Assembly (NCBI RefSeq): GCF_002289565.1
Contig: NZ_NTFY01000003.1
Span: 62,001 to 126,000, forward strand
Direction of reading: 5' to 3'
DNA: 64,000 nt
DNA from: Rhodopirellula sp. SM50
GTDB taxonomy: Bacteria; Planctomycetota; Planctomycetia; Pirellulales; Pirellulaceae
In this document: piece by piece, positions 7,213 to 23,708 of the stretch
How the letters are laid out: the number at the start of each line of letters is the position of its first letter
Numbering within the stretch: position 1 is the stretch's first letter
Notes under the pieces: generated by a model
Told to the model about the DNA's origin: nothing
Seen by the model: only the letters and a program-made list of their open reading frames with translations
The model's database searches: none
Program-made: the position numbers and the translations under genes

Positions 7213-8637
7213 TCAGCTGCTCATCGCCGGTTGGTCTTTCACGCTCGGCAATCCGTCGGATTTCCAAGCGGCGTATCCGCCGGTCAGGTTGATGACGTTT
7301 TTAAATCCCGCAGCCTGCAGGACGCTCGCTCCGATCGCCGAGCGTGCACCGCTGCGACACTGGACGACCAGCGTCTGGTCCCGTGGCAGCTGATCGGCAC
7401 TCGCCGGCAAACGTCCCAAGAAATGATGCCGGGCTTGTTCGATGTGCCCCGCATTCCATTCGTCCTGTGAGCGAACGTCGATCAGTTGCACCTCCCCCGC
7501 TTCGATGCTGTGCGACAGGTCGGCCGGCGACCCGGTGGCGTAGGTTTCGGTCGCCATCCCGGATGCTTGCACCGCTGCCACGTCATAGCCGCCCGCAATC
7601 TCTTCGACGCCGATCTTGTGCAGCACACGAGCCGCTTCCTCCAATTGCTCGGGCCGGCAAATCAGGTACGCCGGCCGGTCGTAATCGAGCAACCATCCCG
7701 CCCAAGCGGACAGCATGTCGAGAGGAATATTGATCGTCCCCGGAACGTGCCCTTTGGCATACTCGGGCGATGGCGTCAGATCGACCACCGTCCCCAAGCG
7801 GACGGCGTCGGCAAGCCCGGCGACGTCCAGCATCTTGTGGTGGTGCCCCCTGCCGAGAATACGTGGGCCTTCCTTGTTCACGCGTTTCATCACCGCAAAG
7901 TATTTGGGAGCCTCGGGCTGGTCGGCCAGAATGTATTGCACGAACGCTTCTTCGGCGCTGAACTGAAGCGCGGGGTTGAATCGTTTCTCGTAGCCCACCG
8001 TGGACGAGGGGATCGCGCCGAGCCCCTTGCCGCAAGCGCTGCCGGCGCCGTGGGCGGGCCAGACTTGCAGATAATCCGGCAGCGTCTTGAAACGCTCGAC
8101 CGACGCGAACAGATCGCGTGCACCGCTCTGTGCCGTGCCCACCATCCCCGCCGCTTCTTCGAGCAAATCCGGACGCCCGATCGAACCGACGAACACAAAG
8201 TCGCCGGTGAAGATTCCCATCGGTTTGTCCGCGCCACCGCCTTGGTCGGTCAACACGAACGAGATACTTTCGGGTGTGTGTCCGGGCGTGTGCATGACGT
8301 CGAAGCGGATGTTGCCGACCATGAAGTGATCGCCGTCGTACAAACGCTCGCTGTCGTATCCGTCGAGGAATTGGTATTTCCACTCGTCGGGACCTTCATC
8401 GGACACGTACAGTTTGGCGCCGACACGGTCGGCAAGCTCACGGGCACCGGAAACATAGTCGGCATGAATGTGTGTCTCGGCGACCGCGGTGACTTTGAAC
8501 CCTTCTTGATCCGCCATCGCCAGGTACTGATCGATGTCACGGCCGGGATCCACGACGACGGCCACGCCCGCCCGCTGGCAGCCGACCATGTAGGACGCGT
8601 GGGCGAGTTTCTGGTCGTAAAAATATTTGAGCAACAT
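7213..8637 (-). CDS. ETHE1-like persulfide dioxygenase fused to two rhodanese domains
   Basis: A 474-residue fusion. Residues 1-240 form a metallo-beta-lactamase fold with THIHAD (His56, His58, Asp60) and HTPGHTPES near 116, as in ETHE1/Blh persulfide dioxygenases, which oxidise glutathione persulfide to sulfite at a mononuclear iron. About 270-360 is a first rhodanese-like domain with LICRPEQ at the active-loop position, a non-canonical loop. About 375-465 is a second rhodanese with the intact loop CRSGARS. The order suggests that persulfide sulfur is oxidised and sulfane sulfur is moved to or from sulfite or thiosulfate within one polypeptide. It sits between the TauE exporter gene and the DUF1641/SQR pair. 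ATG start at 8637. Confidence 0.88.
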   Translation of the reverse strand: MLLKYFYDQKLAHASYMVGCQRAGVAVVVDPGRDIDQYLAMADQEGFKVTAVAETHIHADYVSGARELADRVGAKLYVSDEGPDEWKYQFLDGYDSERLYDGDHFMVGNIRFDVMHTPGHTPESISFVLTDQGGGADKPMGIFTGDFVFVGSIGRPDLLEEAAGMVGTAQSGARDLFASVERFKTLPDYLQVWPAHGAGSACGKGLGAIPSSTVGYEKRFNPALQFSAEEAFVQYILADQPEAPKYFAVMKRVNKEGPRILGRGHHHKMLDVAGLADAVRLGTVVDLTPSPEYAKGHVPGTINIPLDMLSAWAGWLLDYDRPAYLICRPEQLEEAARVLHKIGVEEIAGGYDVAAVQASGMATETYATGSPADLSHSIEAGEVQLIDVRSQDEWNAGHIEQARHHFLGRLPASADQLPRDQTLVVQCRSGARSAIGASVLQAAGFKNVINLTGGYAAWKSDGLPSVKDQPAMSS

Positions 8638-8671
8638 GATTCGTGTTCCCTGCTGAAGGTACGGGATTGGA

Positions 8672-9496
8672 TTACAACACCACTGATTTGAAGATCACAA
8701 AGACCGCGACCAACACGACCGCGATCGAAAATGTTTTTTGAAGGGTGGGGCCTTTCAGACGCGTCGCGACGACGCCGCCCAGCCACATGCCCACAAAACC
8801 ACCCACCAAGAATTGCAGCGTCGTTTGAAGCGACAACTCGTTGCCGCCGGCGATGTGGGATGCCACTCCACTGATGCTGACCAGGACGATCACAAACAGC
8901 GACGTTCCGACGGCTTGATGGATCGCCATCCCGCTGAACAACACCAGCGCCGGGACGATCACAAACCCACCGCCGACGCCGAACATGCCCGACAGCACAC
9001 CCGTCATCAGCCCCACGTAGACCAGCAACCGGGCACACCGAGAGGTCAACCGCAACTTGCCGTCGGCGTCCCGCTGACACGCACTGCGGTCCCGCCCCGG
9101 TTCGCTTTCGGTCGTGCAAACTCCGCTGGCCACCTTCGGGTTCTTGGCCTTGGCCCACATTCGAGAGGCGACGACGAACATCAACAGCGCGAACATCACC
9201 AACAAGGCGTTCTCGGGAACGAGCTTCGACAAATACGAACCCAAGGGCGCGCCCAGCATGCCGGCGACTGCGAACAAGAAACCCGTCCGCAATTCGACCT
9301 CGCCGCGAACCAACCGTGGGATCGCCCCCGAGAGCGCCGTTCCGCCGACCGCCGCCAGCGAGATCCCAACCGCCTCACGTGGTGCAACGCCCAAACCGTA
9401 GACCAACAGCGGGACCGCGAACACGCCGCCACCGCCGCCGGTCAAGCCCAACGCAAAGCCGACGATGCTGCCGAACAGGATGGCTAGGCCGAACAT
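8672..9496 (-). CDS. TauE/SafE family sulfite/anion exporter
   Basis: A 274-residue polytopic membrane protein with the duplicated glycine-rich repeats of the TauE/SafE family (GLTGGGGGVFAVPLLVY near residue 17 and GMFGVGGGFVIVPALVL near 165), about eight membrane segments, and a cytoplasmic loop at about 110-145 that contains a Cys and several charged residues. Family members export sulfite, sulfoacetate or related anions. Beside a persulfide dioxygenase, the likely cargo is the sulfite made by that enzyme. The start codon lies inside the end of the upstream rhodanese gene (13-bp overlap), so the two are translationally coupled. Confidence 0.88.
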   Translation of the reverse strand: MFGLAILFGSIVGFALGLTGGGGGVFAVPLLVYGLGVAPREAVGISLAAVGGTALSGAIPRLVRGEVELRTGFLFAVAGMLGAPLGSYLSKLVPENALLVMFALLMFVVASRMWAKAKNPKVASGVCTTESEPGRDRSACQRDADGKLRLTSRCARLLVYVGLMTGVLSGMFGVGGGFVIVPALVLFSGMAIHQAVGTSLFVIVLVSISGVASHIAGGNELSLQTTLQFLVGGFVGMWLGGVVATRLKGPTLQKTFSIAVVLVAVFVIFKSVVL

Positions 9497-10038
9497 GACC
9501 TTTCACAACCCCCGTCGCCACACTGGTTCCATGGCATCTTGGCGATCATCGACGACATCGGGCAGTATCCCGTCAGCCCGGCAAACACCAGCCCCGCGCC
9601 GATGAACGCGGAGAGCGCCACGAAGGCCGGGTGAACGAACTGCGCCAAGACGACGCCCAGCACCGTCAACGTCCCGGCGGTGATTTGCATCTGCTGCGAT
9701 AGCGGCAATGACTTCTTGCCGCGCACCACAGGAAGCCCCGCTTTGTCCCACGCCAGTGTGCCACCTTCGACGTTGACGACGTTTTCAAACCCCGCGTCGA
9801 TGAATGTCTGGCAGGCCTGTTTCGAACGGTTCCCGCCGCGGCAGATGACATACAAGGGCCGATCGGCAGATCCGTTTCGCTCGGCTATCACGCGGCGGGG
9901 ATCAAGCGATTCCAAGGGAACGTTCCGCGCACACTCCGCGTGGACCGCGCGATACTCCGTCGGCATGCGGACGTCGATGACGTCGATTTCGGTACGCCCC
10001 TGTTCTTCGGCCAATCGCTTCACATCAATGGTCTGCAT
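9484..10038 (-). CDS. rhodanese with membrane tail (YgaP-like, DUF2892)
   Basis: A 184-residue protein. The N-terminal rhodanese domain (1-110) has the catalytic loop CRGGNRS with Cys66. After it come two closely spaced hydrophobic helices (about 118-160) containing GYCPMSSM, the DUF2892-type membrane segment of YgaP-like proteins, and a Cys-rich end (CGDGGCERSC). It probably carries persulfide sulfur at the cytoplasmic membrane face. First gene after the ArsR regulator, overlapping the next gene by 13 bp. The C-terminal cysteines could accept sulfur or bind metal, which is inference. Confidence 0.88.
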   Translation of the reverse strand: MQTIDVKRLAEEQGRTEIDVIDVRMPTEYRAVHAECARNVPLESLDPRRVIAERNGSADRPLYVICRGGNRSKQACQTFIDAGFENVVNVEGGTLAWDKAGLPVVRGKKSLPLSQQMQITAGTLTVLGVVLAQFVHPAFVALSAFIGAGLVFAGLTGYCPMSSMIAKMPWNQCGDGGCERSCSA

Positions 10039-11101: not shown

Positions 11102-13846
11102 ATGGATGATTGCCCACAGACATTGACCGCCTGGCATGCATTGGACGTCGACGGCGTCGTGCGGAAACTCGAAGCGGGCGAGCATGGGCTCAGCGAAACC
11201 GAGGCGGCGGCGCGTTTGGCCCGATACGGTCCGAACCATCTGCCGCGGAAACCGCCGACGCCGTTGTGGGCGATTGTGCTGCGTCAGTTCCGCAGTCCGT
11301 TGATCTACATCCTTGCCTTGGCAGCATTGGTTTCGGTGGCCTTGGGGGATGTGAAAGACGCGGCGTTTATAGCCGGCGTGCTGGTGCTCAATGCCGTGAT
11401 CGGGTCGTTCCAGGAGTGGAAGGCCGAACAGAGTAGCCACGCGCTGAAAAAGCTGCTCCAAATCCGCGCCTCGGTGCATCGCGACGGGAAAGTGCGCGAA
11501 GTGCAAGCGGAGGACGTGGTGCCGGGGGATATTGTCTGGCTGGAATCGGGAAACCGCGTGCCGGCGGACATTCGATTGCTATCGGCCCACGGGCTGGAGT
11601 CCGATGAGTCGCTGTTGACGGGCGAATCGTTGCCGGTAGTGAAAGAACCCGGCTGGATCGGCGGCGAGGCGACACCGGTCGCGGATCGATTGAACATGAC
11701 GTATGCCGGTTCGATCATCACTCGCGGGCGAGCCAAGGGGTTGGTGGTCGCCACGGGAGCGGCGACCAGCGTGGGCCAATTGGCATTGGACGTGTTGGGC
11801 GAATCCGGCGGGCGTCCTCCGCTGCTGGTGCGGATGGAACGCTTCACGCAAGTGATCGCGGTGGCCGTGCTCGTCGCGGCGACCATCATCGGTGCCTTGG
11901 GTGTCGGGTTCGGCGGCTATTCGGCGGAGGAGATGTTCATGTTTGCCGTCGCCTTGGCGGTCTCGGCGATTCCCGAGGGGCTACCGGTGGCGATGACCGT
12001 GGCGTTGGCGATCGCGACGACTCGGATGGCGGGGCGAGGACTGATCGTGCGGCGTCTGACCGCCGTGGAGGGACTCGGCAGCTGCACGCTGATCGCCACC
12101 GACAAGACCGGAACGCTGACCTGCAACGAGCTGACCGTTCGCCAGGTCTGTTTGCCCGACGGCGAAACGTTTCAAGTCACCGGGGAGGGATTTCGTCCTT
12201 CGGGTGAAGTCTTGCAAGACGGCAAACCATTGGAACCGGGAAGTCATGAGCCGCTGGAAAGGTTGGCGCGTGCCGGGGTCCTCTGCAATGAAGCCGACCT
12301 GCATCAGCACGACGGATCGTGGACGTGGCGAGGTGACGCGGTGGACATTGCCTTCTTGGCGTTTGGTCACAAGCTTGGTTGGAACCATGAGTCGACGCTC
12401 GATTCCCATCCCCAGGTCAACCAGATTCCGTTCGAGCCGGAGTATCAGTTTGCCGCGTCCTACAACCGCGTCGCGGGTGGCGTCTCGGTGTTCATCAAGG
12501 GCGCTCCGGAACGCGTTTTGGCGATGTGCAGCGAAGCGAGTTGCGGCGAGGTCTCGCCGGCTGATTGGGACGCGACGGCAACTCGGATGGCGGCGATGGG
12601 CTATCGAATTCTGGCTCTGGCGGATCAGCAACTGGATCACCCCATCGAATCCGATGAAGTCCCGCCGCCGCCTTCGCGATTGCGCTTCCTGGGATTTGTC
12701 GGCATGATCGATCCACTCCGGCCGGGTGTCAAAAGCGCCGTGCAGTCCTGCGGCGAGGCCGGCGTTTCGGTCTCGATGATCACCGGCGACCACCGCGTGA
12801 CGGCGTTGGCGATCGCCCGCGACCTGGCGCTGGCCGATGACGAGAGCCAGGTGATGACGGGCGAGGAGCTACAGGAGAAAAGTCCGGACGAGCTGGCGGA
12901 ACTGGTTCGCAACATCCGCGTCTTTGCCCGGGTCGCACCGCGGCAGAAACTGGAGATTGTCAACGCCGCCCGCAAGGCGGGACACTTTGTTGCCGTCACC
13001 GGCGACGGCGTTAATGACGCCCCCGCGCTGCAGGCGGCAAATGTCGGTGTGGCGATGGGCAAGAGCGGCACCGACGTCGCCCGGGAAGCCGGCGAGTTGG
13101 TGATCAGCGACGACAATTTCGCCACGATCGTTGCCGGCATCGAAGAAGGCCGCGTGGCCTACGACAATATTCGCAAGGTGATCTACCTGCTGATCTCCAC
13201 CGGTGCGGCTGAACTGGTGCTGATGGCCCTGGCGGTGGGAACCGGCACGCCCTACTTGCCCCTGATGCCGGTCCAAATCCTCTGGCTGAACCTGGTCACC
13301 AACGGGATTCAGGACGTCGCGTTAGCGTTCGAGCCCAATGAAGGCGGCGTGCTGTCGCGTCAACCACGTTCACCCAAGGAACGGATTTTCAATCAGCTGA
13401 TGATCGAGCGGACGGCGATCGCGGCGGTCGTGATGGGCATCATCGGATTCACCACCTTTCGCTGGTTTCTCCCCGAGGGTGCAACCGACGCGGAAGTCGC
13501 TTCGGCGCGAAACGCATTGTTGTTGTTGATGGTTTTGTTTGAAAACGTCCACATCGGCAACTGTCGCTCCGAGACGAAATCGGCCCTGGTGATGTCACCG
13601 CTCCGCAGCCCCATCTTGCTGGCCGGCGCGATCACCGCATTCTGCATCCACTTGGCGGCCATGCACACCTCGTGGGGCCAGTTCGTGCTAGGCGCCGAAC
13701 CGCTCGCCCTCAAACACTGGGGGATCTTGGTTCTGTTATCGCTCACGATTCTTCCCGTGATGGAACTGCACAAATGGAGTTGGCGGAAACGCTATCCCAA
13801 CCAAACGCGCACACGCGAGGATCGCAAACCTCACGCCGGCAACTGA
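11102..13846 (+). CDS. P2-type cation-transporting ATPase
   Basis: A 914-residue P-type ATPase with the domain order N-terminal cation-ATPase domain, actuator (DESLLTGESLPV), M4 motif AIPEGLPVAMT, phosphorylation site DKTGTLT (Asp334), nucleotide-binding domain with KGAPERV, hinge TGDGVNDAPAL, and six C-terminal helices. It resembles the SERCA/PMCA/CtpF-like P2 group. In M6 the sequence is LNLVTNGIQD, so the Asp of the SERCA NLVTDG ligand set is replaced by Asn, while the M4 Glu is kept. Ca2+ transport is therefore not assured and Na+, Mn2+ or H+ remain possible. Cytoplasmic membrane. First gene of an apparent ion/stress block running to 18.5 kb. Confidence 0.9.
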   Translation: MDDCPQTLTAWHALDVDGVVRKLEAGEHGLSETEAAARLARYGPNHLPRKPPTPLWAIVLRQFRSPLIYILALAALVSVALGDVKDAAFIAGVLVLNAVIGSFQEWKAEQSSHALKKLLQIRASVHRDGKVREVQAEDVVPGDIVWLESGNRVPADIRLLSAHGLESDESLLTGESLPVVKEPGWIGGEATPVADRLNMTYAGSIITRGRAKGLVVATGAATSVGQLALDVLGESGGRPPLLVRMERFTQVIAVAVLVAATIIGALGVGFGGYSAEEMFMFAVALAVSAIPEGLPVAMTVALAIATTRMAGRGLIVRRLTAVEGLGSCTLIATDKTGTLTCNELTVRQVCLPDGETFQVTGEGFRPSGEVLQDGKPLEPGSHEPLERLARAGVLCNEADLHQHDGSWTWRGDAVDIAFLAFGHKLGWNHESTLDSHPQVNQIPFEPEYQFAASYNRVAGGVSVFIKGAPERVLAMCSEASCGEVSPADWDATATRMAAMGYRILALADQQLDHPIESDEVPPPPSRLRFLGFVGMIDPLRPGVKSAVQSCGEAGVSVSMITGDHRVTALAIARDLALADDESQVMTGEELQEKSPDELAELVRNIRVFARVAPRQKLEIVNAARKAGHFVAVTGDGVNDAPALQAANVGVAMGKSGTDVAREAGELVISDDNFATIVAGIEEGRVAYDNIRKVIYLLISTGAAELVLMALAVGTGTPYLPLMPVQILWLNLVTNGIQDVALAFEPNEGGVLSRQPRSPKERIFNQLMIERTAIAAVVMGIIGFTTFRWFLPEGATDAEVASARNALLLLMVLFENVHIGNCRSETKSALVMSPLRSPILLAGAITAFCIHLAAMHTSWGQFVLGAEPLALKHWGILVLLSLTILPVMELHKWSWRKRYPNQTRTREDRKPHAGN

Positions 13847-14284: not shown

Positions 14285-15280
14285 ATGCGTCGATTGGCTT
14301 GGACCATCACCGTGCTTGTGATCTTGACGCTGGTCGGTGTCGGCTGGTTCTGGTTGGTGGAAGGTTGGTCGCTGCTGGATTCGGCGTACATGACGGTGAT
14401 CACGTTGAGCACGGTGGGTTACGACGAAGTCCGGCCGCTGACCGCCAGAGGCCGCATCTTCGTGATGGTCTACCTGGTCTTTGGATTGGGGGTGTTTCTA
14501 TTCGCCGTCGTGCAATTCGGCGAAATGATTGTACGCGCCGAATTAAGAACTTGGTTGAGGAGACGAGGTATGAACTCGGCATTGAAGGCGATGAAGGACC
14601 ACTTCATTATCTGTGGCTTTGGCCGCATGGGGCGGACGATTTGTCGCCACCTGGCCGAGCGAAAGTTGAACTTCGTTGTCGTCGACCAAAACGAGGAAAA
14701 ACTGGCCCGCTGCGAAGAACTCGGTTGGCCGTGCGTGCGTGACGACGCGACCAGCGACCGCACGCTGCTGGACGCCGGCATCGAGCGTGCCCGCGGCATG
14801 GCGGTCGTCTTGGACAGCGATGCCGACAACCTGTACGTCGTGTTGTCGGCCCGCCTGATCGCGCCAAAGTTGCAGATCATTGTTCGGGCGATGGACGAGG
14901 ACAGTGCGCACAAAATGGAAAAGGCGGGCGCCAACCGCGTGGTCAGTCTGCTCAGCTCCGGTGCCGCGACGATGGCACAACTGTTGATCAATCCACAGGT
15001 CGAAGACTTTTTCGAGTTCGTCACCGGCACCGGTTCAGGCACCGCGTTGGACCTGGCCGAGATCCGCGTGACGGCCGAATCGCCGTGTGCCAATCACCCC
15101 CTATCGGCAACCGATTTTCGTAACCGCGGAGTCATCATCGTCGCCATCCGGCGTGCCGACGGCGAGATCCTGCTGCCGCCAACGGCCGCGACGATCATTC
15201 GCCCCGATGACGTGTTGATCGCTCTGGGGAAAGTCTCTGCCGTGTCCCAGTTCCTGACCAGCGAACAACTCTCGTCCTAG
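14285..15280 (+). CDS. 2TM potassium channel with RCK (TrkA-N/TrkA-C) domain
   Basis: 331 residues: TM1 (about 4-22), pore loop with selectivity filter TVGYD (residues 43-47), TM2 (about 60-82), then a cytosolic TrkA-N/RCK domain starting at IICGFGRMGRTICRHL (NAD-type glycine motif GFGRMG) and a TrkA-C domain (about 255-325). The plan is that of MthK/Kch-like channels gated by ligand binding to the RCK ring. Conducts K+ across the cytoplasmic membrane. Placed between a cation ATPase and a lipid acyltransferase on the same strand, which fits a membrane-potential or ion-stress module. Confidence 0.92.
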   Translation: MRRLAWTITVLVILTLVGVGWFWLVEGWSLLDSAYMTVITLSTVGYDEVRPLTARGRIFVMVYLVFGLGVFLFAVVQFGEMIVRAELRTWLRRRGMNSALKAMKDHFIICGFGRMGRTICRHLAERKLNFVVVDQNEEKLARCEELGWPCVRDDATSDRTLLDAGIERARGMAVVLDSDADNLYVVLSARLIAPKLQIIVRAMDEDSAHKMEKAGANRVVSLLSSGAATMAQLLINPQVEDFFEFVTGTGSGTALDLAEIRVTAESPCANHPLSATDFRNRGVIIVAIRRADGEILLPPTAATIIRPDDVLIALGKVSAVSQFLTSEQLSS

Positions 15281-15336: not shown

Positions 15337-16224
15337 ATGTATGAATCGAATCAGAAACCGCTTCCCGAGGGCGATGCCTCGGTCGTTTTCGCCGACCAAC
15401 TCGCCGAGTTGCGGCGACAGGCGAACGACAGCGACGACGAGTTGACCCCGGCTTCCGAAAACCTGACCCCGGATAGCGTTGTTCGATGGGGGAATCAGAA
15501 TCGAAACGTGATCGCCGGTCTCTGCCGACGGCTGTTGCTGCCCGGTAGCAAAATCGACGGACTCTCCAACCTGCGTGAATTGGTTCGGCATGCCCAGGAC
15601 GACAAGGCGTGCCTGCTCTGCCTCAATCACCGCTCCAATCTTGACGTCCCCACCTTGGATGCCCTGCTGACCGATCACGGCGAAGCCAGACTTTTTGATT
15701 CGCTGATCTGGATCGCGGGCCGAACACTGGAAGAGGATACCGATGTGACCCGAATGCTGGTGCAGTGTTTCAATCGTGTGATCGTCACCCCCCATCGCTG
15801 GTTTCATTCCGGTCGCAGCGAAGCGGAGGTTCATGAAGCGAAGACCATCAACGTCGCGGCCGAGCGTGCCCTGGCACGATTGCGGCACGAAGGCTGGGTC
15901 TGCGCGTTGTTTCCCGCCGGCACACGGGCCCGACCGGACGACGAGTCGACGAAGCAGGCCATCGCGGAGACCGATAGCTACTTGCGGATGTTCGACTACC
16001 TGTTGCTGTGCCACATCGATGGCTGCACCCTGCCGGTCTCGCGAAGTCAGGATTTCACTCACGAGGTGCCGAAACTCGATCGCGTGGTTTTTACCTTCGG
16101 ATCCGTGCGAGCGACCGATCGGTGGCGTGCCGAGATGGATGCCAAGTATCCCGATTTGGATCAACGGGAAGCGTCAGCCCGGGGCATCGGTGAGGAGATC
16201 GAAGCGCTCGCGACACACGACTGA
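15337..16224 (+). CDS. 1-acyl-glycerol-3-phosphate-type acyltransferase
   Basis: A 295-residue PlsB/PlsC-superfamily acyltransferase. The catalytic H(X)4D motif is NHRSNLD (His98, Asp103), and a substrate-binding block FPAGTRARPDD lies near 203-213. Longer insertions than in PlsC place it closer to glycerol-3-phosphate acyltransferases. It would acylate a glycerolipid or related acceptor at the membrane. 56 bp separate it from the K+ channel gene and 49 bp from the MBL-LOG gene, all on the plus strand. Confidence 0.85.
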   Translation: MYESNQKPLPEGDASVVFADQLAELRRQANDSDDELTPASENLTPDSVVRWGNQNRNVIAGLCRRLLLPGSKIDGLSNLRELVRHAQDDKACLLCLNHRSNLDVPTLDALLTDHGEARLFDSLIWIAGRTLEEDTDVTRMLVQCFNRVIVTPHRWFHSGRSEAEVHEAKTINVAAERALARLRHEGWVCALFPAGTRARPDDESTKQAIAETDSYLRMFDYLLLCHIDGCTLPVSRSQDFTHEVPKLDRVVFTFGSVRATDRWRAEMDAKYPDLDQREASARGIGEEIEALATHD

Positions 16225-16273: not shown

Positions 16274-18517
16274 ATGAAGATCACATTCCTGGGCGCCAAC
16301 CGAAATGTCACCGGATCACGCTACTGTCTGGAAATCGGCCAGAAGCGCGTGATGATCGACTGCGGCATGGTCCAGGAACGCGACTACGCATCGCGAAACT
16401 GGGAACCGTGCCCCGTGGACGTTACGAGCATCGACGCCTTGGTCGTGACGCATGCCCACCTGGACCACATCGGATTGATCCCGAAGCTTGTCGCCGATGG
16501 CTTTCAGGGAAAAATCTATGCCACCCGACCGACGGTGGCCCTGGCCGAGGTGATGCTCAGGGACGCGGCAAAAATCCTGGCCGAAGACGTGGAATACAAA
16601 CAGCGGCGTCATCGGGAAGAAGGACGCAAGGGGCCCCATCCGGCCCTGCCCCTGTACACCAACCAGGATGTCGACAACGCGCTGCCGCGGTTCCGCGGTG
16701 TCGGTTATCGCACCCCGGTCGAAATCGTTCCCGGTGTCACGGTCAGATGGCATGACGCCGGCCACATCCTCGGCTCCGCATCGCTTGAAGTGGTGGTCCG
16801 CGAGTCGGGGCGAGAACGAACACTCATCTTTTCAGGTGATCTTGGTCAACATGATAAACCATTGATTCACGACCCCACCTACTTTCGCCGCGCCGACTAT
16901 GTCGTCATGGAGTCGACCTACGGTGACCGCGATCATGAATACCACGGCAACATCGAGGAACGACTCGCGACGATCGCAGCCGAAGCCATCGAGCGCGGCG
17001 GGAATCTGGTGATCCCGGTGTTCGCGGTCGAACGGGCGCAGGAGATGATGTACTTTCTGGGGCGTTTGGTGCTTCAAGGCCGCATTCCAAAGGTGCCCAT
17101 CTTTTTGGACAGCCCGATGGCGTCGGACGTCACGGATATCTATCGGCGATTCACGAGCTGGCTGGATCCGGAAACGCGCCGGGCGATCGAAGCCGAGCTG
17201 GCACCGCTGCGGTTTCCCGGTCTGACCATGACGCATACCGTTGACGAGTCCAAAGCGATCAACCAAGTCCAGCAACCTTGCATCATCATGGCCCCCACCG
17301 GCATGTGCAGCGCCGGACGGATCAAGCATCACCTGCGAAACAACATTCGCCGTCCCGAGTCGACCCTGCTGTTCGTCGGTTTTCAGGCCAACGGAACGCT
17401 CGGGCGGCGGATTCTCGATGGAGAGAAATGCATCCGGATCCATGGACGCGAGTATCACGTCGAGGCACAAGTCGCGCAGCTGTTCGGATTCTCGGGACAT
17501 GCCGACCGTACCGGGTTGCTCAACTGGCTGGGGAACTTCGAACAATCGCCCCGCAAGTTGTTCTTGACGCATGGCGAAGAACAGGTCGCCCTGGCGTTAC
17601 AGGAGACGGTGCGAAAGCGATTCGGGTTCGACGTGTCCGTTCCCGAGTACGCGTCCGAAGTGCTTCTTGACGACGAAGGCCCCAGTCTGGTGGACGCGGG
17701 CAGAGAGATCGCGATCGTCGTCCGCCGCCCTGTTGCCGAGGAAACGGCACGCGAAGAACGCGCCGCCGCCGAGTCAGCCGGCCAGGAATCTCAGGTCGAC
17801 CTGGGGGAAATCGCGGCGGAGGAGGATCCCGATCGAGAGTTTTTGGACAGCAGCGTGCATCGGCCCGTCAGTTTCTTGCACGAGGATCCCTGGCGCGTCT
17901 TGCGGATTCAAAGCGACCTGATCCAGGGCATCGAAACGATGACCCGCGCGCTCGATGGACGCCGTCGCGCGGTGTCCGTTTTTGGCAGCGCCCGTTTGCC
18001 GGAAAGTGATCCCGCGTACCACTTCGCCCGGCGGACGAGTCAATTGCTCGGTCAGCGAGGATTCGGCATCATCACCGGCGGCGGACCGGGAATCATGGAA
18101 GCGGCCAATCGTGGCGCACGCGAGGCCGGCAGTTTGTCGATCGGGCTGAACATCGAACTGCCGCGTGAGCAATCGCTGAATCCCTATTGTGACGCGTCCT
18201 ACACCTGCCGCTATTTCTTCGTCCGCAAAATGATGTTCGCCAAATACGCCCGGGGCTTTGTGATCTTCCCGGGCGGCTTCGGCACCTTCGATGAATTCTT
18301 TGAATCGTTGACGTTGATCCAAACCGAAAAACTGGCGCACTTTCCAGTTGTCTTGGCCGGAACACAGTTCTGGCAACCCATGGTTCAGTGGCTACAACAG
18401 TCGGTTCAAGAATCGGGCTGCATCGACGAGCATGACATCCGGCGATTTCGAGTCATGGATGACGCCGACGAAATCGCCGATTGGCTCGATGCGGTCATCG
18501 ATGGAGGCGAACGGTAA
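16274..18517 (+). CDS. MBL/beta-CASP RNase fused to a LOG-family nucleotide phosphoribohydrolase
   Basis: 747 residues in one uninterrupted frame. Residues 1-455: metallo-beta-lactamase plus beta-CASP nuclease of the CPSF73/YsgA type, with THAHLDHIG (His60, His62, Asp64, His65), GHILGSAS, MESTYGDR, a beta-CASP segment and the RMM-like FSGHADRTGLL block. Residues 456-540: charged linker. Residues 545-747: LOG/TIGR00730 Rossmann domain with GGGPGIMEA (602-610) and PGGFGTFDE (666-674), the nucleotide-monophosphate N-glycosidase motifs. Known members of the first family process RNA 3' ends; LOG enzymes split a nucleoside 5'-monophosphate into base and ribose-5-phosphate. I infer coupled RNA cleavage and nucleotide breakdown. 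Its stop abuts that of the convergent CNNM-type gene. Confidence 0.9.
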   Translation: MKITFLGANRNVTGSRYCLEIGQKRVMIDCGMVQERDYASRNWEPCPVDVTSIDALVVTHAHLDHIGLIPKLVADGFQGKIYATRPTVALAEVMLRDAAKILAEDVEYKQRRHREEGRKGPHPALPLYTNQDVDNALPRFRGVGYRTPVEIVPGVTVRWHDAGHILGSASLEVVVRESGRERTLIFSGDLGQHDKPLIHDPTYFRRADYVVMESTYGDRDHEYHGNIEERLATIAAEAIERGGNLVIPVFAVERAQEMMYFLGRLVLQGRIPKVPIFLDSPMASDVTDIYRRFTSWLDPETRRAIEAELAPLRFPGLTMTHTVDESKAINQVQQPCIIMAPTGMCSAGRIKHHLRNNIRRPESTLLFVGFQANGTLGRRILDGEKCIRIHGREYHVEAQVAQLFGFSGHADRTGLLNWLGNFEQSPRKLFLTHGEEQVALALQETVRKRFGFDVSVPEYASEVLLDDEGPSLVDAGREIAIVVRRPVAEETAREERAAAESAGQESQVDLGEIAAEEDPDREFLDSSVHRPVSFLHEDPWRVLRIQSDLIQGIETMTRALDGRRRAVSVFGSARLPESDPAYHFARRTSQLLGQRGFGIITGGGPGIMEAANRGAREAGSLSIGLNIELPREQSLNPYCDASYTCRYFFVRKMMFAKYARGFVIFPGGFGTFDEFFESLTLIQTEKLAHFPVVLAGTQFWQPMVQWLQQSVQESGCIDEHDIRRFRVMDDADEIADWLDAVIDGGER

Positions 18518-19579
18518 TCACGACGGACCGCTTCGGTCACCTTGCGACGGACGCTGTTCCCGTTGCCGCGCCAGTTCCTGCATGTCGACGACGACATCCA
18601 CCTCATCAACGATTTCTTCACCGATCAAAGACTCCATCACGTCTTCCAGCGTCACGATCCCCACGACGGTGCCGGACTCGTTCACGACGCCAAACAAATG
18701 CGACCGTTTGCTCAGGAACAACTTCAACAGGACATGTCCCGGTGTGTTCATGGGCACCCGATGCAGCGGTTTGGCAAGCGACCCCAGGGTGCGATCAAAT
18801 TCATCGCGGGCCAGATGCGCCAACACATCGCGTCGCAACACGACCCCGCTCCAAACGTCATCGTTTTGGGGATCGGTCACCGGTACGCGGGCGTTGGTCC
18901 ATTTGATCTTTCCCGCCGCCATCTCGTGACTGATCGCCTGCAGCGTGGTGTCGGCCGGGAATCGTCTGACGACCGATCGCGGCGTCATGATTTCTGCGGC
19001 CGTCACCTCGTTCAGCTTCAAGACCTGTTGAACCAACTCCGCTTCGATCGGCAAGATACTTCCCTCCTCGGCACTCATGCGGGCCATCTGGCCGACTTCT
19101 TCTTCGGGTGCCGCGAACACGGGACCGGAAGGTTTCACGATGTCAGCCAACTTGTGAATCACCCAAACCAGCGGAAACAGTGCATGCACGGCGATGGTCA
19201 GCGGCATGGCAACCAGCACCGCAATCCGATCGCTGTACGCGACACCCAAGATCTTGGGAATGATCTCCGAGAAAAACAGAACGCCCAGGGTGAACACGGC
19301 GGAGAACCAAAGAATGAACGACTGACCGAGCACGGCTTCCGCCTGCGCCCCGGCGAGTGCCGCGCCGGCCGTGTTGGCCACCGTGTTGATGATCAAGATC
19401 GCGGAAATCGGCCGCTCCATGTTCTGCTTCATGCGATCGAGCACGCGACCGGCGGCGCTGCCCGATTCGCGGAGCGATCGCACATACGACGGCCGCACCG
19501 CGTACAACGCCGCTTCGGTCACCGAGCAGAGCGCCGAAACAACCAAAACACACAAGACCGATACAATCAAAAGTGTCAT
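18518..19579 (-). CDS. CNNM/CorC-type membrane protein (DUF21 plus CBS pair)
   Basis: 353 residues: an N-terminal DUF21/CNNM transmembrane domain with three or four helices (1-150, including FFSEIIPKILGV), then a CBS-domain pair (about 190-325; ITAAEIMTPRSV-like entry and VVGIVTLEDVMESLIGEEIVDE at the end). The C-terminal CorC_HlyC domain found in many relatives is missing. Such proteins are linked to Mg2+ efflux or homeostasis; 'hemolysin' names are historical. It converges with the MBL-LOG gene, the two stop codons touching (18515-18517 and 18518-18520), leaving no intergenic terminator. Confidence 0.88.
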   Translation of the reverse strand: MTLLIVSVLCVLVVSALCSVTEAALYAVRPSYVRSLRESGSAAGRVLDRMKQNMERPISAILIINTVANTAGAALAGAQAEAVLGQSFILWFSAVFTLGVLFFSEIIPKILGVAYSDRIAVLVAMPLTIAVHALFPLVWVIHKLADIVKPSGPVFAAPEEEVGQMARMSAEEGSILPIEAELVQQVLKLNEVTAAEIMTPRSVVRRFPADTTLQAISHEMAAGKIKWTNARVPVTDPQNDDVWSGVVLRRDVLAHLARDEFDRTLGSLAKPLHRVPMNTPGHVLLKLFLSKRSHLFGVVNESGTVVGIVTLEDVMESLIGEEIVDEVDVVVDMQELARQREQRPSQGDRSGPS

Positions 19580-20589: not shown

Positions 20590-22617
20590 TTAAGGAATTT
20601 GAATACAGATCAATTCGAATTGGCTGCGCAAGTACAAACGATCGCACACGATCGCCGGATGCGACATGCTTTCGGGGTGCTCGCCTTGCATGGGCCGCCA
20701 CTGCGAAACGATCGCCAACCCGTCGGCGGTTGCGTCGAGCAGCAAGAGATCACATTCGGATCCCCACAACAGCACGCGTCCATTGCCGGCGATCAAGCAG
20801 GTGTGATCGTAAAACCGCTCATCGGTTTCGCTCCACAACGTTTCCAGCTGATTGGAGCCGTCGATGCAGAACAATTCTCCATACGCCGTACAGAAGACAC
20901 GCGACGCGTCCTCCAACTCGACAACCACCGGTGTGCAGGTGTCGGGAGCGCAATCCAAGTTGTGCCAAACCGGTTGCGGGTCGATCTGTCCATCGTCTTT
21001 GAACCGATACCAGCGCATCGCATTGTTTTCGGTCGCCAGCAAAACGCCGTCTTGAAATGGAACCGGCGTTCCGACATGGAAGTCACTTTTTTCCGGCGGA
21101 ATCAGTTCCCAGAGACGTCGCCCCGTCGCCAGGTCCCATCCGCCCAGTCCGGGCGAATCGTAGCCGATGACTTGCTCGCGTCCGCCGAACGATCCGTAAA
21201 TAAACGGCGCGTAAGCCGGCGCGTGTCCTTTCGTTTTCCAAAGCGTGGCGCCGGATTCCAAACTCAACGCCGCCAGCGACGCATCCGCGCTGCCTGGTGC
21301 GACCACGACCCGATCACCGACGACCAGTGGCGGGACACTGAATCCCCACGTCGGGACCTCGCCGCCGAAATCGGCCACCAAATCGCGTGTCCAAATCGGT
21401 CGTCCCGTCGCCAGTTCGACGCACATCAGTTTTCCGAACGCACTTTGCAGCAACACCCGATCTTCAAGGATCACCGGCGTCGCGCGCGGTGCGTTGGTGT
21501 ACTCCATCCGATCGTCGGCATGATGCCGGACTTCCCAAACGGACGTGCCCGTCGCGGCGTCGAAGGCGCGAAACAGGTCCTGTTGAAAATCAGCCGACTT
21601 GTCGGCAACCACCACCCAGCGGTCGGTCGCAGAGATGCCCGCCATCGCGGGGCCGGTCACGGTTGTTCGCCAAAGGACCTTGGGCTGCTCGGCCAACGAC
21701 GCCGGCAGCTCCGCAAACTGGCCGGTCCGGTCTGGCCCACGCCAATCCGTCCACCCACGGCCGACTCGACCCGAATCCGCTCCGGACGTCACGGGGACGA
21801 ATCCGCGCTGCGACTCCAAAGCTTCGTTGATCGTCGGGTCAGCGGCTGCCGATGCGATGGCCGAGTTCATTGATTCTTGAACGGATGACGTAAGGTTCGC
21901 AGCGAAAAAGAACTGCACACCACGACAGGGTTGGGTTTCTGCGATCGTCTTGGTCGCGTTCTTTTCCAGCTTCCCACAGGCCTCCAACAGTGGCGGCAAG
22001 TAATCGGTGACCACGACCGCGTCGACTTCTTGGTCGGCAAAGGCATAGACCGCTGATTCGATACTCGCGTGACCGATCAAGGAGGCGTCGATCTTGCGGG
22101 ACCGAAATAATTCTTTCGGCAGTGTGTGGCATTCGGCATGTTCGGGCGACCCGATCGCGACCTTCTTGCCGGCTAGTTGCTGCACCGAGTCAATCACACT
22201 GGCTTTTGCGACCAACAATACACCGCGAATCTCCGTCACGCCATGACGGTCCGTTAAATCCCAAGCCGCGTGCAACTCAACCCCGGTCGCCTCGGCGTCG
22301 CCGAGCACCACCGATCGTTTTCCAACGACCAGATCAATGCTCGACAAACCACGACGCTTGGCCAGCTGCAGACTCTCCTCATAAACGAGATTGATCTTCC
22401 GGCCGATCGTCGCCTCCAAGTGCTCGACCAACGGTTCATACCGCCGCTGCCCGATTCCATCGACACACGCACACGAAAGCGGCAACGACAACGGGTCCAT
22501 CACAACCAGATTCAGCGTGGACTTGGCGTCGGAGTCGGCTTGCTGCCCCCAGGTCGTACCCACCCAGCAAACGACCAGGATGGCAACGGATCGAACGACG
22601 AAACGGATGGCTTTCAT
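20590..22617 (-). CDS. PhnD-like substrate-binding domain fused to a PQQ-type beta-propeller
   Basis: 675 residues. After a Sec signal peptide (MKAIRFVVRSVAILVVCWVG), residues about 30-290 resemble periplasmic phosphate/phosphonate-binding proteins of the PhnD class (YEPLVEHLEATIGRKINLVY; GKKVAIGSPEHAECHTLPKELF; VDAVVVTDY). Residues about 300-670 form a PQQ-dehydrogenase-like propeller (WTDWRGPDRTGQF start; ATGRPIWTRDL, ATGRRLWELIP blades). No permease or ATPase gene is nearby, so the binding domain probably senses or presents a ligand outside the cytoplasm rather than feeding an ABC importer. The frame is open to a TTG at 22713; the ATG at 22617 overlaps the upstream stop (ATGA) and gives a signal peptide. 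Confidence 0.8.
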   Translation of the reverse strand: MKAIRFVVRSVAILVVCWVGTTWGQQADSDAKSTLNLVVMDPLSLPLSCACVDGIGQRRYEPLVEHLEATIGRKINLVYEESLQLAKRRGLSSIDLVVGKRSVVLGDAEATGVELHAAWDLTDRHGVTEIRGVLLVAKASVIDSVQQLAGKKVAIGSPEHAECHTLPKELFRSRKIDASLIGHASIESAVYAFADQEVDAVVVTDYLPPLLEACGKLEKNATKTIAETQPCRGVQFFFAANLTSSVQESMNSAIASAAADPTINEALESQRGFVPVTSGADSGRVGRGWTDWRGPDRTGQFAELPASLAEQPKVLWRTTVTGPAMAGISATDRWVVVADKSADFQQDLFRAFDAATGTSVWEVRHHADDRMEYTNAPRATPVILEDRVLLQSAFGKLMCVELATGRPIWTRDLVADFGGEVPTWGFSVPPLVVGDRVVVAPGSADASLAALSLESGATLWKTKGHAPAYAPFIYGSFGGREQVIGYDSPGLGGWDLATGRRLWELIPPEKSDFHVGTPVPFQDGVLLATENNAMRWYRFKDDGQIDPQPVWHNLDCAPDTCTPVVVELEDASRVFCTAYGELFCIDGSNQLETLWSETDERFYDHTCLIAGNGRVLLWGSECDLLLLDATADGLAIVSQWRPMQGEHPESMSHPAIVCDRLYLRSQFELICIQIP

Positions 22618-23708
22618 GACGCGATCCGCTGGAGCACACGAATCAGATTCGCCCTGACGTCCATCACATAAATCCGATTGCCATCGGCCGACACTTCGAC
22701 GGGGATGTAGCAACTGGCCGCGGCGATGCGACTGCCGCGATCGAACTTCGTCGTGTCGACGTATCCGATCAACTGCTTGAACGTGCCATCGGGGTGGAAC
22801 TCTTTCACCCGTCCGATTCCGGATTCCGCAGTCACCAGTCTGCCGTTGATCAGATCAAAATTGACGGGATTGCAGCAGGCGGCAAATCCTTCGATGCCCG
22901 TCCGGTCTCGCTGACCCCAGCGTCCCAGCAATTCGCCATCGAACGAAAAACGGTTGACGCGATGGCGCGAGTTTTCGGCGACCAACAAGGTATCGCCGTC
23001 GGTCGCCAGATCGATGTGGGAACAACAACCGAATTGTCGCTGCACGATCATCGTCGGATTCTTCAGATCCCTGGTCAGCCGGACGATGTCCTCGGTCGCA
23101 CGCAAGCTGCGCCCGCTGCCGATGGCGACGAACAAGTATTGTTCATTGACCGCGATGCCGCTGATGTGCGTGTCAGCGCTGGTGTTCGGGATCACGTCGA
23201 CGATCTTTACCTTTTCGACCAGGTTTCCAGCGCGGTCGATTTTAGCGATCAAGTACTCACCGCCGAGGTAGATCGAGCCATCGTCGGTTCCACAGATCTG
23301 CAGCGGCACGACGTTTTCGATCTCGATTTTCCGCAGTTCGGTGCCGTCGCCATCGAGCACTCGGATTTCACGACGCTCGGACCAGTAATCCCAAAACGCG
23401 GGGTCATCGGTCGCCGGCGGATCCCCTTCGGCAGCCGGCTTTTTCACCAGCCAGGTGACCGCGGCCAGCAACTCACCGGCCTGGTTCATCGCCATCGTCT
23501 CCAACCGGCCCTCGGTGCCGATTTCCAGCTTGATCGATTCGACCTCGCGGTGTGTCGGCTGCTCGCGGTCAGTGGGTTGCTCGCGGTCAGTGGGCTGCTC
23601 GCGGTCAGTGGGCTGCTCGCCGTCGTCAGCGGCCAACCCAGCCGAACCCGCGATCAGCAGCAAGAACGGCAATGCCGATCGGATCAGACGTCGGGTCCGC
23701 TGAATCAT
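22614..23708 (-). CDS. exported NHL-repeat beta-propeller with vicinal cysteines
   Basis: 364 residues with a Sec signal peptide (LIRSALPFLLLIAGSAGLAA), a low-complexity segment of four six-residue repeats (EQPTDR x3, EQPTHR; residues 31-54) and an NHL-like propeller. Cysteine pairs occur in QFGCCSHIDLA and FAACCNPVNFD, plus AASCYIPVEV. The second is shared with the Tat-exported propeller of the same operon. The blade text ENSRHRVNRFSFDGELLGRWGQ is classical NHL. First gene of the operon; its stop overlaps the next start by 4 bases (ATGA). No function recognised; an electron-transfer or metal-binding role is only a guess. Confidence 0.8.
   Translation of the reverse strand: MIQRTRRLIRSALPFLLLIAGSAGLAADDGEQPTDREQPTDREQPTDREQPTHREVESIKLEIGTEGRLETMAMNQAGELLAAVTWLVKKPAAEGDPPATDDPAFWDYWSERREIRVLDGDGTELRKIEIENVVPLQICGTDDGSIYLGGEYLIAKIDRAGNLVEKVKIVDVIPNTSADTHISGIAVNEQYLFVAIGSGRSLRATEDIVRLTRDLKNPTMIVQRQFGCCSHIDLATDGDTLLVAENSRHRVNRFSFDGELLGRWGQRDRTGIEGFAACCNPVNFDLINGRLVTAESGIGRVKEFHPDGTFKQLIGYVDTTKFDRGSRIAAASCYIPVEVSADGNRIYVMDVRANLIRVLQRIAS
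23547..23618 (-). repeat. 18-bp tandem repeat, four copies, in frame
   Basis: Four consecutive 18-bp units encode EQPTDR, EQPTDR, EQPTDR and EQPTHR just after the signal peptide of the propeller gene. The units are nearly identical at the DNA level, so the copy number may vary between strains without changing the frame. Confidence 0.85.

Follow-up and report, generated by a model that had tools for sequence, protein, structure and literature searches.

LOG enzymes are common in bacteria without evident use for cytokinin, and for ribonucleases of the TTHA0252 type the physiological role is, to our knowledge, still unsettled in most phyla. In the planctomycete Rhodopirellula sp. SM50 the two are joined in one gene, and the question is what they would do together. 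A conserved fusion, along with further pairings of the separate genes in other lineages, predicts that both families act sequentially on the same material, so that one protein makes both role questions testable. We refer to the whole 64,000-nucleotide stretch of DNA that was analysed as the window.

The fusion gene is genuine

We observed that the gene is an open frame of 747 codons with no internal stop (Table 1). The Pfam matches over the cut-off were Lactamase_B_2/_6, Beta-Casp (residues 255-380), RMMBL (394-457) and Lysine_decarbox, which corresponds to LOG (608-736); the motif GGGPGIME occupies residues 602-609. When the protein database was searched with the fusion (8000 candidates scored), 90 of the 120 matches listed, the query counted, took in both halves and covered 90% or more of the query. 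The domain pair, which the initial annotation had proposed to look for in protein databases, is thus a conserved architecture.

The same fusion, 86% identical, was present in the TBK1r chromosome record CP036432.1 (10.8 Mb; L023), and seven further named records (L024-L028, L030, L032) each had both halves within a single match. The fusion in L030 stops at the contig edge (residue 680) and was split into two frames by the ORF calling. Recurrence in CP036432.1, in the seven other records and in most listed homologues rules out an assembly or frameshift artefact. The fusion is genuine, and the earlier description of one polypeptide without a frameshift was borne out. The linker had been put at about 85 residues; it is indeed present, but measures about 67 residues here, because the type-II LOG fold already includes the helix that begins near residue 533. 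The predicted structure of the whole protein (pTM 0.64) places the nuclease and LOG halves relative to each other only tentatively.

Table 1. Features of the fusion gene and its neighbours (window coordinates)
Feature	Position	Strand	Evidence
Fusion gene, beta-CASP ribonuclease + linker + type-II LOG, 747 aa	16274..18517	+	Open frame, Pfam, homologues spanning both halves
MBL/beta-CASP/RMMBL nuclease half, residues 1-465	16274..17668	+	
Linker, residues 466-532, disordered, unconserved	17669..17869	+	pLDDT, identity, dN/dS
Type-II LOG half including N-terminal helix, residues 533-747	17870..18514	+	
THAHLDH metal-binding motif, residues 59-65	16448..16468	+	Translation, alignment
PGGFGTFDE, LOG signature, residues 666-674	18269..18295	+	Translation, alignment
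Acyltransferase-domain protein, possible operon partner, 49 bp upstream	15337..16224	+	Weak Pfam match, 28.1 bits (cut-off 23)
P-type cation ATPase, recurs near fusion	11102..13846	+	Pfam; 4/12 fusion loci
K+ channel with TrkA domains	14285..15280	+	Pfam
CNNM/CBS protein, convergent, adjoins the fusion's stop at the next base	18518..19579	-	Pfam

Both halves keep conserved active sites

We aligned 66 members (53-89% identical to the window protein). In the nuclease half D29, H60, H62, D64, H65, H164, D189, E213, H352, H353, H409 and H433 were invariant, and the site residues line up with those of TTHA0252. This half carries the MBL motifs (Asp, HxHxDH, His, Asp), the beta-CASP motifs and the RMMBL domain, and the fold of TTHA0252-type beta-CASP ribonucleases was matched across its entire length. 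For TTHA0252, 5'-3' exoribonuclease activity and probably also endoribonuclease activity are reported in the available text of PMC4229858, and the PDB holds mutants of it at S378, H61, H380 and H400.

In the LOG half, R651, K652, T671, D673 and E674 were invariant in the same 66 members, and mapping by alignment places them at Arg155, Lys156, Thr175, Asp177 and Glu178 of CgLOGII. Alanine mutants of these CgLOGII residues are described as having lost all or nearly all activity (PMC5379747). The statement that both halves keep their catalytic motifs is confirmed by these invariant residues. The half is a type-II LOG, having the PGGxGTxxE motif with the catalytic Arg/Lys/Thr/Asp/Glu set as well as the extra N-terminal helix (539-559 in the model), and it aligns from residue 534 to 5wq3 and 5zi9. 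The residues of the proposed prenyl site (F648, F649, K652, E677 and L681, mapped by alignment) were also invariant in the 66 members; L681 is Met in Cg1261 and Leu in Tt1465. These two type-II LOGs have been shown to hydrolyse NMP to base and ribose-5-phosphate, AMP being split only after long incubation, and type-II LOGs form hexamers (statements from the available portion of PMC5379747). A strong preference for prenylated NMP is reported for a Mycobacterium LOG (PMC8234997).

In comparison to the TBK1r orthologue, dN/dS was 0.058 for the LOG half (the most constrained part), 0.125 for the nuclease half and 0.86 for the linker. The linker averages 29% identity, and the two halves 66% and 71%. 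Both halves are under purifying selection and the linker is not; its length ranges from 43 to 86 residues across the 66 members, and pLDDT falls below 50 at residues 486-538 of the predicted structure.

Other identities were evaluated and rejected. The protein scored 23.5 bits as RNase J (cut-off 400) and 412.6 with the NCBIfam model of the type VII CRISPR protein Cas14 (cut-off 800 bits). PADLOC gave only traces for a type VII CRISPR reading (16.5 and 14.9 bits), and no CRISPR array was present in window positions 6000-28000, only an 18-nt tandem repeat (four overlapping copies with an 18-base step at 23544-23633) and one two-copy repeat. PpnN nucleosidase reached 42.4 bits against a cut-off of 450. 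Lysine decarboxylase is a misnaming, since in the available text of PMC5379747 Cg1261 and Tt1465 are without such activity. The only other PF03641 gene of the SM50 genome (L069:6604-7665, 353 aa) has a long C-terminal extension and follows an apparent Na+/H+ antiporter gene (named by eye). A set of Patescibacteria-type proteins of about 440-490 aa (P0122-P0171) also gave LOG Pfam matches, many together with PF02481, and may contain a double Rossmann fold.

The fusion is a rare, accessory gene of planctomycetes

Besides the 90 full-span proteins, the 120 matches listed comprised two shorter ones with both halves (P0091, P0097) and 28 without a listed LOG domain. All named carriers among them were planctomycetes, the rest being labelled plain 'bacterium', and no plasmid match covered 80% of the query. 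A scan of genome contigs gave 10 loci, of which eight (L023-L028, L030, L032) had both halves; L029 lacked the LOG, as did L031, a remnant with an internal gap. This remnant (Stieleria sedimenti, L031:6001-7061) has lost part of the nuclease and adjoins the same ATPase and channel genes.

Of the 294 genomes sampled across the phylum, two carried a full-length fusion (G000, G270); of the 396 sampled across the order, three did (G000, G597, G426). SM50 is counted in both samples, and the two or three best candidates were scored per genome. In the genus sample it was present in 1 of 10 genomes, namely SM50 itself. This rarity indicates an accessory gene. In an IMG/VR scan for a viral fusion, the nuclease half was matched once and the LOG half eight times, but no match took in both. 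The eight viral contigs (L192-L199) carry type-II-like LOG genes, 45-48% identical, and L191 carries a beta-CASP gene.

When 76 beta-CASP rows were placed on a tree, the fusions branched from within the unfused orthologues. Of 13 close proteins without a LOG, 7 fell among the fusions. One fusion event followed by later losses fits this tree, although some of the seven may be truncated. A smaller, more careful tree placed 8 fusions in one clade (support 90/71), and the 13 fusion LOG domains formed one clade (SH-aLRT 99), apart from the LOG2 genes described below. The second beta-CASP of SM50 (L070) has a long branch and an unsure place in the trees. One close relative, P0096 (838 aa), has a D-2-hydroxyacid dehydrogenase where the LOG would be, and a gene of this dehydrogenase family adjoins the fusion in L064 (L064:7875-8882).

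The fusion lies among stress-related genes

The initial annotation had suggested a stress setting from the cation ATPase, K+ channel and CNNM genes. We searched the loci with Usp, cation ATPase, Hsp20, 2-hydroxyacid dehydrogenase and acyl-CoA ligase, and nine of the 12 fusion loci gave matches, as against none of the 11 around unfused orthologues and one of the 42 MBL2 loci (a second beta-CASP subfamily, see below); these queries were drawn from fusion loci and so favour them, the window and L023 are close kin, and the stretches are of unequal length. Of the 12 fusion loci, five matched Usp, four the P-type ATPase, two Hsp20 and one each the dehydrogenase and the ligase.

Pfam tallies, which are free of the query bias, showed the same trend. 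The 82 neighbour ORFs at fusions gave Usp 7, CBS 4, cation ATPase 4, CNNM 3, HSP20 2 and BON 2. For the unfused orthologues (75 ORFs), none of these families was among the 25 of 105 families shown, while the MBL2 loci (77 ORFs) gave UbiD 9, short-chain dehydrogenase 7, A24_N 7 and cation ATPase one. The fusion sits in a stress setting, as had been suggested, and the MBL2 pair does not; the latter may have a more ordinary role. Of the individual neighbours named in the initial annotation, only the cation ATPase turned up again outside the closest relatives; the K+ channel and CNNM genes were seen only in L023 and L031. The acyltransferase-domain gene lies upstream of the fusion in L023 too.

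An FNR-type box upstream of the fusions was unsupported, with a single one-mismatch site (L024) in 11 upstream regions. In a low-oxygen-activated locus of Burkholderia, a 51-kDa metallo-beta-lactamase superfamily protein is listed among the raised proteins (available text of PMC6127331); from its size we would guess that it is of the same beta-CASP type. Elsewhere in the window we noted a phosphonate-binding-type periplasmic domain joined to a PQQ-type beta-propeller (20590-22713, minus strand) and an MBL-rhodanese protein, a TauE/SafE exporter and a rhodanese in a row (7213-10038, minus strand), likely a sulfide-oxidation cluster.

Separate beta-CASP and LOG genes are repeatedly paired

The MBL2 subfamily is about 40% identical. 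Among 54 MBL2 loci, hand-picked at roughly one per genus, 41 had a separate LOG gene (LOG2) less than 400 bp downstream on the same strand; without the 8 loci chosen with a LOG already in sight, the count was 33 of 46. Of the other 13, three had LOG2 at a greater distance downstream (0.85 to 2.9 kb), and in ten it was absent from the available stretch. In several loci the two frames share 4 bp, the LOG starting within the end of the beta-CASP gene. None of the 54 was fused, and one database protein, P0176 (697 aa), joins an MBL2-type beta-CASP to LOG2 (it comes from a 2.5 kb contig, with the junction as deposited). In Pirellulaceae, many LOG2 proteins also carry the N-terminal domain of prepilin peptidases (PF06750, A24_N_bact) as a fusion (P0173-P0292; L060:6830-7855). 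In several loci an A24_N gene directly precedes beta-CASP and LOG2, and UbiD and short-chain dehydrogenase genes are frequently close by.

In a third beta-CASP lineage, f37, the LOG precedes the beta-CASP with a 4-bp overlap in four genomes (G109, G135, G066, G235), the first three of which were chosen with the LOG match already known. These pairs lie downstream of apparent F-type ATPase subunit genes, and a glycogen-phosphorylase-like gene follows in G109 and G135 (both named by eye). The other 10 of the 14 f37 loci examined had no LOG beside the beta-CASP copy, which was another paralogue in the 6 tested. When we examined the unfused orthologues closest to the fusion, no LOG was found in the flanks of 1.5 kb or less available for 42 loci (L005-L022, L035-L058), nor in 10 with longer flanks. 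The initial annotation had regarded the two enzymes as normally separate, which is true of the polypeptides but not of the genes, as these are repeatedly adjacent.

A single beta-CASP lineage for all of the LOG links was rejected by AU tests of single clades (fusion with MBL2, p = 3e-75; fusion with f37, 2e-83; MBL2 with f37, 1.3e-7; all three, 1.6e-49), the p-values being optimistic as these were two-tree tests on groups already seen on the tree, with 9 of 11 MBL2 rows used. In the LOG tree, however, LOG2 is joined by the f37 LOGs (support 93, no bootstrap), which leaves a separate origin of the f37 and MBL2 pairs in doubt. Neither the fusion nor the gene pair was named in the literature searched, a weak negative that goes mostly by titles and abstract openings. 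By sequence, fold and site residues, both halves fall into families already described; what is new is the combination and its repeated evolution.

On some plasmids a phosphorylase may take the place of the LOG

A tblastn search with the fusion protein gave 238 plasmid records, and the listed rows mostly match the nuclease half. We read 18 plasmid beta-CASP loci, mostly proteobacterial (8 from the best 25 rows and 10 from 40 evenly spread rows). In seven, genes for a 'thymidine phosphorylase family' protein and a PRPP synthetase lay within three genes of the beta-CASP (Shinella, Pseudorhizobium, Novosphingobium on the other strand, Bradyrhizobium, Variovorax, Sphingobium and Paracoccus). A LOG was immediately beside it in two, Sulfitobacter (LOG, 41 bp, beta-CASP) and Hoeflea (beta-CASP, 4-bp overlap, LOG), and in none of the 18 did phosphorylase/PRPP synthetase and LOG occur together. 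Thiothrix (P-type ATPase) and Hoeflea (LOG) were picked with the partner in sight, and without both the counts were 7 of 16 and 1 of 16. The remaining nine, with incomplete gene tables, had no such neighbour annotated (Thiothrix, Paraburkholderia, Cupriavidus, Peptoclostridium, Leisingera, Rhizobium lentis, Mesorhizobium, Deinococcus and Sinorhizobium medicae). No beta-CASP was annotated near two LOG loci from the LOG search (Alloyangia, Azospirillum).

Phosphoketolase was annotated at the Shinella and Mesorhizobium loci, with a weak relative in Pseudorhizobium, acetate kinase at the Mesorhizobium and R. lentis loci, and Usp at 7 of the 18. The module of beta-CASP, 'thymidine phosphorylase family' protein and PRPP synthetase (L201, L202, L206, L209, L210, L211, L214) sometimes adds phosphoketolase, Usp, P-type ATPases or an alternative F-type ATPase, and looks like a portable nucleotide-salvage island. 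Three of the phosphorylases were tested and matched best NF003338 and TIGR02645, both named thymidine phosphorylase. The AMP phosphorylase model TIGR03327 came next (444-485 bits, cut-off 535), and the classical thymidine and pyrimidine-nucleoside models gave 126-197 bits. By these scores the plasmid phosphorylases may split NMPs.

Proposed function

We propose that the fusion is a bifunctional enzyme whose nuclease half digests RNA and whose LOG half splits some or all of the resulting NMPs under stress, a reading for which we regard the case as evenly balanced. The initial annotation's idea of one polypeptide that dismantles RNA under stress is thereby supported in part. The zinc-dependent, TTHA0252-type nuclease half would digest RNA, probably 5'-3', to 5'-mononucleotides, which is the substrate class of LOG. 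The LOG half would hydrolyse some or all NMPs to free base and ribose-5-phosphate without ATP, and the flexible linker would tether the two sites within a single particle, which would be a hexamer if the LOG half oligomerises like its relatives. Ribose-5-phosphate would enter central metabolism, and during energy limitation or other stress modified or surplus nucleotides would be kept from the NTP pool. We infer both activities, the 5'-3' direction, the hexamer, the hand-over between sites and expression under stress.

The coupling of separate beta-CASP lineages to LOG, the phosphorylase or LOG neighbours of plasmid beta-CASP genes, the exoribonuclease activity reported for TTHA0252, the intact conserved sites, the purifying selection on both halves and the stress-type neighbours support this proposal. 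Against it stand the MBL2-LOG2 pairs outside a stress setting, the nine plasmid loci without an NMP-splitting neighbour, the close relatives without a LOG half, the tentative placing of the halves in the model and the absence of phosphoketolase from the SM50 genome, which was searched for it. That genome has two Glycos_transf_3 (phosphorylase family) matches, neither near the fusion. A wider and more tentative reading, possible if somewhat doubtful, is a stress pathway that burns RNA, in which a beta-CASP exoribonuclease passes 5'-NMPs to an interchangeable NMP-splitter and the ribose phosphate goes to fermentation, the steps being fused in some planctomycetes. The partner would be an AMP-phosphorylase-like enzyme with a PRPP synthetase homologue on proteobacterial plasmids, or LOG in the planctomycete and alphaproteobacterial pairs. 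If true, cells short of oxygen or under energy stress could draw on RNA as a store of carbon and energy, which bears on dormancy, ribosome loss and survival.

The substrate is where the bifunctional proposal meets its closest alternative. As type-II LOGs are slow on AMP and the Mycobacterium LOG prefers prenylated NMP, bulk NMP turnover may be too slow, and modified NMPs may be the true substrate. The nuclease could then degrade tRNA or other modified RNA and the LOG act only on N6-modified NMPs, so that isopentenyl-AMP from tRNA A37, for instance, would yield a free cytokinin-like base and RNA synthesis would be spared modified NMPs. The substrates of known LOGs are cytokinin riboside monophosphates, which tRNA degradation is described as setting free (available text of PMC8234997), and AMP is split slowly (PMC5379747); the proposed prenyl site is invariant, and MiaA (PF01715) is present in the SM50 genome. 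MiaA is common, however (10 of 14 control genomes), and the nearby stress and energy genes are better suited to a salvage role. We consider this alternative rather unlikely. The slow rate on AMP favours modified (N6-prenyl) NMPs, whereas the AMP-phosphorylase-like enzyme filling the slot beside the plasmid beta-CASP favours ordinary ones.

That same replacement by another nucleotide-splitting enzyme also speaks against a regulatory LOG half, which would bind a nucleotide or stress signal, or provide a hexameric scaffold, and so switch or cluster the ribonuclease, its hydrolase activity being secondary. PpnN, which is related to LOG, is controlled by alarmones. The hexamers formed by type-II LOGs (PMC5379747) would suit such a role, but the invariance of the catalytic residues and the low dN/dS are more than binding or scaffolding needs, and we hold regulation to be improbable. 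Least probable of all, and very unlikely in our view, is a chance fusion of neighbouring genes whose products keep separate jobs. The long, unconserved and disordered linker would allow it, as would the several close relatives without LOG (some maybe truncated or misread), among them P0096 with its dehydrogenase. Links of separate beta-CASP lineages to LOG, alphaproteobacterial neighbours included, are hard to obtain by chance, and both active sites stay intact.

Comparison with known systems

The closest characterised nuclease is TTHA0252 of Thermus thermophilus (PDB 2dkf, 3idz, 3ie1 and others), a beta-CASP ribonuclease of 431 residues without a LOG domain, which the fusion protein adds. Cas14 of type VII CRISPR is also a beta-CASP protein, with a C-terminal part unlike that of the fusion. 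The type-II LOGs Cg1261/CgLOGII (5wq3), S. coelicolor LOG (5zi9) and Tt1465 (1wek) stand alone, whereas here the LOG is the C-terminal half of a ribonuclease.

The archaeal AMP phosphorylase (TIGR03327) resembles the proposed role of the fusion in taking NMP to base and ribose phosphate for carbon use, and relatives of this archaeal type adjoin beta-CASP on plasmids. It works by phosphorolysis to ribose bisphosphate and is not fused, whereas the proposed hydrolysis by the fusion's LOG would give ribose-5-phosphate. The IPT-LOG chimeras of Rhodococcus fascians (A21d2) and Claviceps purpurea, like the fusion, join a LOG to an enzyme that supplies its substrate (as described in the available part of PMC8234997); there the partner makes free prenyl-AMP, while in the fusion the partner of the LOG is a ribonuclease.
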